A stretch of DNA of 5,388 nt from Candidatus Hydrogenedentes bacterium CG07_land_8_20_14_0_80_42_17 (GTDB lineage Bacteria > UBA8481), in contig PEWQ01000147.1 in assembly GCA_002780065.1 (NCBI GenBank), forward strand, positions 1-5,388, given 5' to 3'. Positions 3,033 through 5,388 of this stretch are shown one piece after another (position 1 is the stretch's first letter; every line of letters starts with the position of its first letter). The position numbers and the translations under genes were made by a program. The notes beneath the pieces were generated by a model, which searched no databases, was not told the DNA's origin, and worked only from the letters and a program-made list of their open reading frames with translations.

Positions 3033-4094
3033 TTAATCAGGAAGAATTGTATCGTAGCCCATGACTTTTTTAAAATCCTTTACTAATTTTGGATCGAAAT
3101 GAGTTCCGGCGCATCTGTCCAATTCCTTGAAGGCATCAAGCATGCTCATCCTTGAACGGTACGGCCGATCGGAAGTCATAGCGTCGTATGCATCGACAAT
3201 GGCAAATATGCGCGCTTCGATCGGAATCTTTTCTCCTTTCAAACCTTCAGGATATCCTGACCCATCGAATTTTTCGTGATGGTAAAGTATGAGCGGAAGT
3301 ACTGAGGACAAAAACGGAATATCCTTCAGCATTTCGTAACCCCACATGGGATGGTTCTGCATCAGAGCGCGTTCTTCTTCTGTCAATGCGCCCGGCTTTC
3401 GCAAAATTGCGTCTGGTACTCCAATCTTGCCTACATCGTGAAGCATTGCTCCCTGCTTTATACTTCTTATTATTTTCGGAGAAAGTCCAAGATATGCCGC
3501 AATCCTGCACGCAAGGTCCGAAACTCTGTGCGAATGGTCGTCAGTGTCCGCATCTCTGAGGTCCAGCGCTTTTGAAAGAGCTTCGAGTGTGACATCATAC
3601 GTCTCAAGTAATTCGCTGTTTGCAGTCTCAAGAGTTTCAAGTTGATATTCGAGGTCGGTCATTGTCTGACGCATTCTTTCACTGAATCTTTCCAAAATGA
3701 TTTGAGCTATTTTAGGATGCTTACCGAAGAGTACATAGAAATCGTCTTTTCCGAGTTCGAAAAGAATAGAGTCTGAAAGGGCTCTGATAGAAGCGGAGCG
3801 TGGAAGCCTGTCGAGAACTGCCATCTCTCCGAAAAAATCTCCCTCGCGCAAAATATTAACCGGATGCTCTGTTCGAGAAGTTCTCGCGAGTACCTGCATT
3901 ACTCCTGAAAATATGAAGAAGACGGAAAACCCCGGCTCACCTTCGGAAATAACATACGTTCCTTCCGAAACATCGAGTTTATTCAATAACGGAACTATCT
4001 CTTCCAGTTCCGAGTTCGTCATGTCCTGAAACATTTGAATTCGTGATAGGTCTTCAGCTAAAATATGAGACTTAATATTATTCTTTGAATTCAT
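3033..4094 (-). CDS. Cyclic-nucleotide-binding domain plus HD-GYP phosphodiesterase
   Basis: A cytoplasmic signalling protein of 353 residues, with no signal peptide or membrane segment. Residues about 16-135 form a CRP-type cyclic-nucleotide-binding domain, with phosphate-binding cassette GEMAVLDRLPRSAS at 89-102 (Arg99 the expected phosphate ligand). Residues about 135-177 look like a coiled-coil linker (SERMRQTMTDLEYQLETLET). Residues about 170-340 form an HD-GYP domain with HS.RV (His187), HDVGK (His219, Asp220), His248, HHEKFDGSGYP (272-282) and DAYDAMTSDRPYR (Asp301 on). All key motifs are intact, so c-di-GMP hydrolysis to pGpG or GMP is expected, probably tuned by ligand binding or dimerisation at the N-terminal domain; the ligand (cAMP or other) cannot be read off. 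The ATG at 4094 starts MNSKNN; an in-frame GTG at 4118 would add 8 residues and is possible, and neither has a clear Shine-Dalgarno. It lies downstream of amrS in the same direction. Confidence 0.93.
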   Translation of the reverse strand: MNSKNNIKSHILAEDLSRIQMFQDMTNSELEEIVPLLNKLDVSEGTYVISEGEPGFSVFFIFSGVMQVLARTSRTEHPVNILREGDFFGEMAVLDRLPRSASIRALSDSILFELGKDDFYVLFGKHPKIAQIILERFSERMRQTMTDLEYQLETLETANSELLETYDVTLEALSKALDLRDADTDDHSHRVSDLACRIAAYLGLSPKIIRSIKQGAMLHDVGKIGVPDAILRKPGALTEEERALMQNHPMWGYEMLKDIPFLSSVLPLILYHHEKFDGSGYPEGLKGEKIPIEARIFAIVDAYDAMTSDRPYRSRMSMLDAFKELDRCAGTHFDPKLVKDFKKVMGYDTILPD

Positions 4095-4124
4095 ATTTGG
4101 CGATTCTTGAATTCCCACAATGAT

Positions 4125-4179: not shown

Positions 4180-5208
4180 TTATTTTTTTGCAGCGAAGAA
4201 TCCTGCACATAAAGTTCCGCATACTGAACAAGCACCGTCTTCATTCAAGCTATTCTTAATGATGCTGAATCCGTCTCTCACAATTAATTCTTTTCCGCAT
4301 TTATGGCAAATTGTTGAGCTCCCTTTTGAGTCGTGGACATTGCCTGTATAAACATACCTCAATCCGTTCTTCATTCCGATATCTCTCGCTCGAATTAAGG
4401 TTTCAATCGGAGTTCTTTCGCGGTCATGCATATTTCCGGCGGGATGAAACGCGGTAAAATGAAGAGGTACATTACAATCCAATTCTTCTGCTATCCAGCT
4501 AGTCATTGCGTCGAGTTCCTTATCGCTGTCGTTCAATCCGGGAATCAAGAGATTTGTAATTTCAAGCCAGACTTTTGTTCTTTTTTTGATGTAAATTAAA
4601 GTATCAAGAACCGGCTGTAACGTTGCGCCGCAGTATTTTTTGTAGAACTCATTTGAAAACGACTTCAAGTCAACATTTGCGGCAGACATTACATTGTAAA
4701 ACTCAATTCGAGGTTTCTCATTCATATATCCCGCAGTAACTGCTACTGTGTGAATTCCGCGCTTGCGGCACTCAAGAGCCGTATCTACGGCAAATTCGTG
4801 AAAGATGACAGGCTCGTTGTAAGTAAAAGCAACACTCGAAATTCTTCGGCCTTTGGCAAGCTCCGCAATTTTTGCAGGGGAAGTATTCTCCAAAAGTCTT
4901 TCTCTTCCGGTCACATGACTTATTTCCCAGTTCTGGCAGAAAGAACATGCGAGATTACAACCTATGGTTCCGAATGAGAGAATTTCCGAACCAGGTAGGA
5001 AATGATAAAGTGGTTTTTTTTCGATCGGGTCGATTGCAAAACCGCTCGTTCTGCCGTAAGAAGTCAAAAACATTTTTCCGGATTTAACTTCTCGGGAATA
5101 ACAAAAGCCATGTTGATCTTCGGAGAGGATGCATTCTCTAGGACAGAGCTCACACTGGATTTTTCCTTCTCCAAATATTTTCCAGTATTTAGCTTCAAAT
5201 GAATTCAT
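4180..5208 (-). CDS. amrS: AmmeMemoRadiSam system radical SAM enzyme
   Basis: A radical SAM protein of 342 residues, full length for the AmrS family (PflA-like, COG1180). The core cluster motif is CNLACSFC (Cys84, Cys88, Cys91), which would ligate the [4Fe-4S] cluster that cleaves S-adenosylmethionine. The N-terminal block C19xxC22xxxC26 and Cys36 (CELCPREC...HGFC) and two C-terminal CxxC pairs (301/304 and 327/330, plus Cys334) are family-typical and may bind zinc or another cluster. Other hallmarks are FTYNEP (128-133), NVDLKSF and TGNVHD. The family is named for its association with AMMECR1 and MEMO1 proteins; the reaction is not established to my knowledge. Neither partner gene is in this window. 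The ATG at 5208 (MNSFEAKYW) has no Shine-Dalgarno, but TATAAT lies just upstream. The HD-GYP gene follows after a short gap (61 bases to its GTG, 85 to its ATG). Confidence 0.93.
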   Translation of the reverse strand: MNSFEAKYWKIFGEGKIQCELCPRECILSEDQHGFCYSREVKSGKMFLTSYGRTSGFAIDPIEKKPLYHFLPGSEILSFGTIGCNLACSFCQNWEISHVTGRERLLENTSPAKIAELAKGRRISSVAFTYNEPVIFHEFAVDTALECRKRGIHTVAVTAGYMNEKPRIEFYNVMSAANVDLKSFSNEFYKKYCGATLQPVLDTLIYIKKRTKVWLEITNLLIPGLNDSDKELDAMTSWIAEELDCNVPLHFTAFHPAGNMHDRERTPIETLIRARDIGMKNGLRYVYTGNVHDSKGSSTICHKCGKELIVRDGFSIIKNSLNEDGACSVCGTLCAGFFAAKK

Positions 5209-5216
5209 ACAAAAGA

Positions 5217-5222
5217 ATTATA
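5217..5222 (-). promoter_or_regulatory. -10 box of amrS, placed for a near-leaderless transcript
   Basis: The reverse strand reads TATAAT, a perfect -10 hexamer, ending 8 bases before the amrS ATG. Transcription would start at or within a base or two of the start codon. The -35 region (about 5240-5246) is weak, reading like TAAATT. A Bacteroidota-type TAnnTTTG box is an alternative reading (TTCTTTTG here, one mismatch). Confidence 0.45.
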
Positions 5223-5269
5223 CAATATTCTGCAGTAAAAATTTAGGAAAACTACAGATTTGCTTTATA

Positions 5270-5298
5270 TTGACTTAGCTATGAAAAAAGTTGATAGT
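5270..5298 (+). promoter_or_regulatory. Candidate promoter reading into the terminal tandem repeat
   Basis: TTGACT (5270-5275, five of six matches) and GATAGT (5293-5298, four of six) are separated by exactly 17 bases, predicting a start near 5305 in the first repeat copy. An overlapping alternative is TTAGGA (5243-5248), 17 bases, TATATT (5266-5271), which would start near the ATG at 5281. Both point rightward, divergent from amrS. Such matches arise by chance in AT-rich DNA. Confidence 0.25.
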
Positions 5299-5302
5299 TT
5301 AT

Positions 5303-5388
5303 GCCACAGACGCCATTGCGCCACAGACGCCATTGCGCCACAGACGCCATTGCGCCACAGACGCCATTGCGCCACAGACGCCATTGCG
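5303..5388. repeat. 17-base tandem repeat array, at least five perfect copies, cut by window edge
   Basis: The unit GCCACAGACGCCATTGC starts at 5303, 5320, 5337, 5354 and 5371; a sixth copy begins at 5388. All five are identical. Each unit is two half-units sharing CGCCA: CGCCACAGA (9 bases) and CGCCATTG (8 bases). There are no spacers, so it is not CRISPR. The array is GC-rich against AT-rich flanks. The unit has no stop codon in any of six frames and 17 is not a multiple of 3, so translation cycles through all frames every 51 bases, giving a 17-residue period. An ATG at 5281 opens a frame (MKKVDSLCHRRHC...) that runs to the window edge, but no ribosome binding site is visible. True copy number is unknown. 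Confidence 0.95.

Follow-up and report, generated by a model that had tools for sequence, protein, structure and literature searches.

A 17-bp tandem array at a contig end of a Candidatus Hydrogenedentes genome: a probable locus of a dispersed, REP-like hairpin family

Comparisons of dispersed palindromes mostly take one copy at a time, and bacterial minisatellites and intergenic VNTR loci ordinarily have unrelated units. Among the systems closest to the repeat described here, GTAG-tagged REPs have stems of 6-13 bp (5 bp in Thauera) and a short loop, have an unpaired GTAG tag (or GYRG, GTGG or GGAG) at one end and can carry degenerate GTAG termini, and rarely form head-to-tail dimers (PMC3733652). 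P. fluorescens SBW25 has tandem REP arrays, with longer periods (PMC3733652, PMC3116915). In organelles, the arms of the LIMP palindromes of Lobosphaera are themselves made of tandem short motifs (PMC4524435). Finally, template switching is reported to make perfect hairpin stems and to maintain them (PMC8794818).

The repeats studied here share several traits with the GTAG- and CGTC-tagged REPs and REPINs (PMC3733652, PMC3116915): they are short, intergenic, high-copy palindromes, they fall into subfamilies with alternative complementary stem residues and G.T pairs in the stems, and many have what may be a degenerate G-N-R-G tag beside the stem. Their 5-bp stem and 4-nt loop lie at the published short limit for GTAG-tagged REPs (PMC3733652). 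However, unlike REPs and REPINs, they form strictly head-to-tail arrays with a 17-nt period and a 3-nt spacer, the AATG loop is fixed while the stem is specific to the locus, no RAYT gene was found with convincing units in the flanks read, and the bias toward G.T pairs is on the strand opposite the tag. With bacterial minisatellites and VNTRs they have in common a perfect, short-period intergenic array of homogenised copies that breaks short-read assembly, but here one secondary structure, with stems that covary, recurs at many loci. The lineage-specific intergenic hairpins with a constant loop found in organelles (LIMP in Lobosphaera, PMC4524435; Volvox, PMC2670323) offer an analogy, although LIMP is organellar and a single hairpin with repeated arms, whereas the arrays here are rows of complete hairpins with locus-specific stems.

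The window, that is, the whole stretch of 5,388 nucleotides that was analysed, is the entire contig C32 of an assembly of 2.39 Mb in 207 contigs, and the array at its right edge is therefore cut by the contig end. The initial annotation had described a perfect 17-base tandem array at 5303-5388, and TRF recovered exactly this segment (period 17, 5.1 copies, 100% matches, score 172). Exact period-17 matching extends over at most 69 consecutive positions, whereas 200 Markov-1 simulated windows scanned at periods of 10-30 never exceeded 11. On the minus strand, the unit reads as a GGCGC-AATG-GCGTC hairpin followed by the spacer TGT, which is TGC in copies on contig C198. The features of the locus are the following:

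4180..5208, minus strand: gene for an AmmeMemoRadiSam-system radical SAM enzyme (TIGR04337, E 3.8e-157; PF04055)
5209..5301, no strand assigned: AT-rich intergenic left flank, from the array to the start of the radical SAM gene
5270..5298, plus strand: sigma-70-like site TTGACT-17-GATAGT reading into the array, a consensus match only, with 0.5 expected by chance
5302..5302, plus strand: left edge of the array, T where other copies have C
5303..5388, minus strand: left part of the 17-bp tandem array, which continues at positions 1-98 of C198 (locus L006)
5309..5322, minus strand: hairpin unit GGCGC-AATG-GCGTC, with 4 Watson-Crick pairs and 1 G.U
5326-5339, 5343-5356 and 5360-5373, minus strand: further identical hairpin units

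The minus strand of the array, which is its AATG strand, lies upstream of the radical SAM gene. The 17-bp unit has no stop in any of the six frames, so the open frames that cross it (for example, from the ATG at 5281) carry no weight. A coding repeat was rejected, as the stop-free unit makes such frames uninformative and the three frames that exit the array on C198 end within ~30 nt. Likewise, we found no evidence for the phase-variable tract that had been suggested, the array being intergenic and an open frame meaningless in such a unit.

The genome search proposed in the initial annotation was run, and the exact 17-mer was found only at the right end of C32 and in the first bases of C198, on the same strand. 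C198 starts with one further identical copy, followed by four copies with one common A-to-G change, which read CGCCGCAG... in place of CGCCACAG..., and then by unique DNA. The ends of C32 and C198 share 29 bases. As no other contig ends carry the unit, we infer that they almost certainly belong to a single array, at least ~9 copies long and flanked by divergent genes; if the contigs are joined at the 29-base overlap, the array measures at least ~155 bp, and the gap may hide more. The suspicion that the window holds the edge of a longer minisatellite is thus supported, but the statement that its copies show no drift fails for the whole array, given the A-to-G copies on C198 and the T for C at 5302. 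The blocks of A-type and G-type copies are what one would expect if slippage or conversion had spread a point change.

Beyond the array, C198 encodes a lipoprotein predicted to carry a glycoamylase domain (PF10091), after which come, in order, a PMT-type membrane protein, folE, metF, and an IF-2B-family gene. In a same-order relative (G001), the radical SAM homologue lies ~150 bp from a contig end. The array might influence the radical SAM or glycoamylase gene beside it, through a leader structure or by affecting where transcripts end or how stable they are, but it may equally have no effect.

The array has many relatives in its own genome. A survey of 1.17 Mb in 119 contigs, about half of the genome, found 37 period-17 segments, against 0-12 for each of eight neighbouring periods, and ~35 intergenic period-17 arrays of one architecture. 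Almost all follow the plan GNNNC-AATG-GNNNC (a 5-bp stem and an AATG loop) followed by 3 nt of spacer, mostly CAC, CTC or TAC, so that a 14-nt hairpin recurs every 17 nt. The dominant stem is GCGTC/GACGC, other arrays use GACAC/GTGTC, GAATC/GATTC, GTATC/GATAC or GATTC/GAATC, the window uses GGCGC/GCGTC, and a CAATGG core is kept across these unrelated stems. The copies in the window and on C198 follow the plan at the 17-nt period and are recognised by R2, a covariance model built without the window's sequences. Predicted genes exclude 34 of the 35 arrays, though the purpose-made simple gene caller used for this placement called 91% of the sequence coding.

Unit identity is 95% within arrays and 79% between them, which, with the clustering of the A-type and G-type copies, supports the recent expansion or homogenisation proposed from the window alone. 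The other proposal on the origin of the unit fared less well. Its two half-units (9+8) sharing CGCCA are literally present in the window but are missing from the family's other arrays. Indeed, GAATCCATTGATTCAAG, GACACCATTGTGTCGTG, and GCGTCCATTGACGCGAG lack a direct half-repeat and have in common an inverted repeat around CCATTG, which argues against descent from an older, shorter CGCCA half-unit.

Covariation of the stems was measured on 28 distinct two-unit sequences, whose selection had required a minimal level of pairing. In this set, 98.9% of cells paired, compared with 72.7% after shuffling (reached in 0 of 500 shuffles), the covariation score was 0.668 against 0.159 for shuffled stems, with every slid register far worse, and double-sided stem changes numbered 57 against 14 in shuffles (0/500). 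Because these sequences were pre-picked for pairing, two less biased checks were made. First, CAATGG sites in the 1.17 Mb, not selected on array structure, had four perfect flanking pairs in 92 of 676 cases where 2.6 were expected, and seven control hexamers stayed near expectation (at most 11 vs 3.7). Second, the leave-one-out model R2 recovered the window and C198 copies at 29.7-33.1 bits (E 6e-7 to 4.5e-6), the unit at 5309..5322 scoring 29.7 bits (E 4.5e-6). Significance of perfect stems unit by unit was not reached; the signal is collective.

The imperfect pairs are unevenly distributed between the strands. Read on the AATG strand, they are G.T in 29 cases and A.C in 1 inside arrays, 13 and 5 at array edges, and 24 and 0 in the 28 representatives. 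Since these G.T pairs would be A.C mismatches on the opposite strand, the AATG strand appears to be the one whose pairing is kept and thus the structured strand. The argument is a suggestive one and falls short of proof, because the arrays are related and not independent, and the bias is weak when distinct unit types alone are counted (G.T 13 vs A.C 8, p 0.38). The G.T excess might also partly reflect strand-biased deamination. Folded as RNA, the minus strand of the window array forms a regular rod of -38.6 kcal/mol and the plus strand gives -16.3 kcal/mol. However, the minus-strand fold does not stand out in stability against shuffles of equal composition (z -0.91), and the energy by itself is no proof.

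From the shared architecture and intergenic placement of the arrays, their covarying stems, homogeneity, and strand asymmetry, their restriction to the source genome among those searched (see below), and the contig break, we favour, with a probability of roughly 60%, the reading that the array belongs to a lineage-specific family of REP-like hairpins dispersed over many loci, which slippage has multiplied head to tail and whose action, if there is any, is probably that of RNA hairpins. Single hairpins would have been dispersed as REP-like or miniature mobile elements, and single copies behind a conserved leader do exist. Replication slippage, helped by the hairpins, would then expand arrays locally and carry new stem variants through an array. 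The AATG-strand form would be kept, most likely as a transcribed rod of RNA hairpins in intergenic or UTR sequence. It is conceivable, but in our opinion rather improbable, that in a lineage-specific class of tandem structured elements a dedicated host factor (an RNA-binding protein, a nuclease or an HUH transposase) reads the C-AAUG-G hairpin regardless of its stem, leaving loci to evolve their stems by compensation and arrays to lengthen and shorten by slippage.

In terms of classification, the array is a REP-like palindromic repeat in minisatellite form. It consists of head-to-tail copies of a short unit, as a minisatellite does, and it is a REP in the broad sense of a short, high-copy, extragenic palindrome (92 CAATGG sites; 34/35 arrays outside genes). 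It falls outside any defined REP family because head-to-tail copies are rare there and the Y1 genes of this genome have no convincing unit in the flanks read. Many loci of one genome, each with a homogenised array and a stem of its own but with a common loop and period, amount to parallel experiments. They allow one to ask whether selection on RNA or DNA structure, or else template switching, maintains stem pairing in bacterial repeats, and in what way slippage carries a compensatory change along an array.

The alternative that survives best, although we hold it to be considerably less probable than the REP-like reading, is that the arrays are neutral palindromic minisatellites, in which template switching perfects imperfect inverted repeats, slippage homogenises them, and the structure is unselected. 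The identity of 95% within against 79% between arrays does show slippage or conversion, template switching is known to make perfect stems (PMC8794818), and several other palindromic and tandem repeat kinds fill the source genome. However, inverted loops would be expected under this mechanism, and none was found in 116 units. No strand preference would be expected either, whereas G.T and A.C stand at 29:1 inside arrays, and stems that are otherwise unrelated share the CAATGG core. Template switching is thus unlikely to be the sole cause, given the absence of inverted loops and the G.T bias.

Somewhat less likely still is that a RAYT (Y1/HUH) transposase mobilised the units as a classical GTAG-tagged REP family, in which the spacer of the CATT strand and the first stem base form a degenerate GTAG tag. 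At the array level, 31 of 47 such tags are GTGG (10), GAGG (10), GTAG (7) or GGAG (4), and they resemble the degenerate GTAG termini of REPs (PMC3733652). The genome also has four Y1_Tnp matches, and the units are intergenic, abundant, and contain G.T pairs. Yet the flanks read around the four matches, up to ~1.5 kb on each side, hold no convincing unit, unlike a REPtron. Instead of single copies and inverted (HH/TT) dimers, the arrays are only head-to-tail at 17 nt, with loops never inverted (116:0). Moreover, the G.T bias lies on the strand opposite the tag, and the window's own tag is ACAG/GCAG.

A regulatory array of iterons or operators, bound by a protein that controls the divergent radical SAM and glycoamylase genes, is very unlikely. 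The array does lie between divergent genes if C32 joins C198, and other non-dominant arrays often do so as well. However, the family occupies many unrelated loci, including convergent and co-directional ones, and 17 bp is not a helical repeat. Protein binding had been suggested for the array, but a protein that recognises a specific sequence is unlikely, since stem letters vary from array to array and their pairing is preserved. That the assembler made the repeat number or the array itself is hardly credible, for although the array stops exactly at the contig end, like many repeats in this genome, two contigs carry it with different flanks and variant copies, and the same architecture recurs inside other contigs.

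The array is real, but the contig end is an assembly break. A contig end lies within 300 bp of 21 of the 35 arrays, in a zone that makes up 6% of the sequence, and the family's arrays break the assembly in the window as elsewhere. The REP-like family thus accounts for many contig breaks of this assembly, and it provides a marker family for the lineage.

Outside the source genome, the family was not found in the sets searched. The pattern GCGYCCATTGACGC occurring twice gave 110 matches in the source genome and 0 in 40 other genomes. The family covariance model gave 63 matches in the source genome and 0 in 144 others, including one same-order relative, in a scan with stricter filters by which weak matches may be missed. 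In viral contigs, both the 17-mer pair and the dominant unit pair were absent, and Rfam yielded only a tRNA above the gathering score in five sources, including the window and L006. The one match in a named genome (Sphingobium) was discarded as a single 21-base match at about chance level, and matches to the 17-mer with 1-2 mismatches in other genomes are scattered singles.

Within the genome, the dominant subfamily is embedded in a larger dispersed element in which an AT-rich part AATTTTCAATTTGCACTTTCCAATTTGCAATTTCAAATATTATAACTCGTC and then TGGAGGCACAGGCGC precede the array and CTCGCCTGTGC follows it. The outer arms of this element pair, with a compensated variant GCACGTGC, and the element occurs in the source genome only, apart from short AT-rich matches elsewhere. 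A second group has the conserved leader GGAGTTTCCCTAAATCTTTTGCTAC (ten copies reach 3 mismatches); at several loci it is followed by between one and six hairpin units, as are most of its copies. By its flank, the window array belongs to neither the dominant-subfamily nor the leader group. At 5235-5253 of the window (minus strand), AGTTTTCCTAAATTTTTAC is similar to the family leader but is placed on the opposite side of the array, a doubtful match that may be chance. At L199 (G000:C6, ~1-200), the leader and one degenerate unit adjoin a CRISPR-like array whose repeat contains GTTTCAATCCACGCGCCCCGCACGGGGCGCGAC.

Other repeats were noted in passing. Positions 21-87 of the window hold a ~65-bp palindromic dispersed repeat of the type GAAGCAAT...ATTGCTTCG...GCAATGAC, which matches the genome 28 times, in several cases at a contig end. 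A distinct family of AT-rich 7/14-bp arrays, AATTTGCACTTTCC, has ~100 copies in the 1.17 Mb and is frequent at contig ends (L088, L099, L082, L059, L147, and many others). A second set of hairpin repeats has a constant CTATGT loop with stems CGAAC/GTTCG and GCAGAC/GTCTGC, in period-21 and period-51 arrays (L143:1-102, L091:6283-6374, L093:3002-3047, and L081:3341-3494); as in the AATG family, the loop is fixed and the stem variable. At L167:177-262, a period-18 repeat in a proline-rich coding frame is unrelated to the hairpin arrays. As for the remaining genes of the window, the plus strand has a 609-aa open frame at 273-2102 that resembles an outer-membrane beta-barrel, probably starts downstream of its first GTG, and has no Pfam or NCBIfam match, and the minus strand encodes at 3033-4118 an HD-GYP-type (HD_5) protein with an N-terminal cyclic-nucleotide-binding domain.
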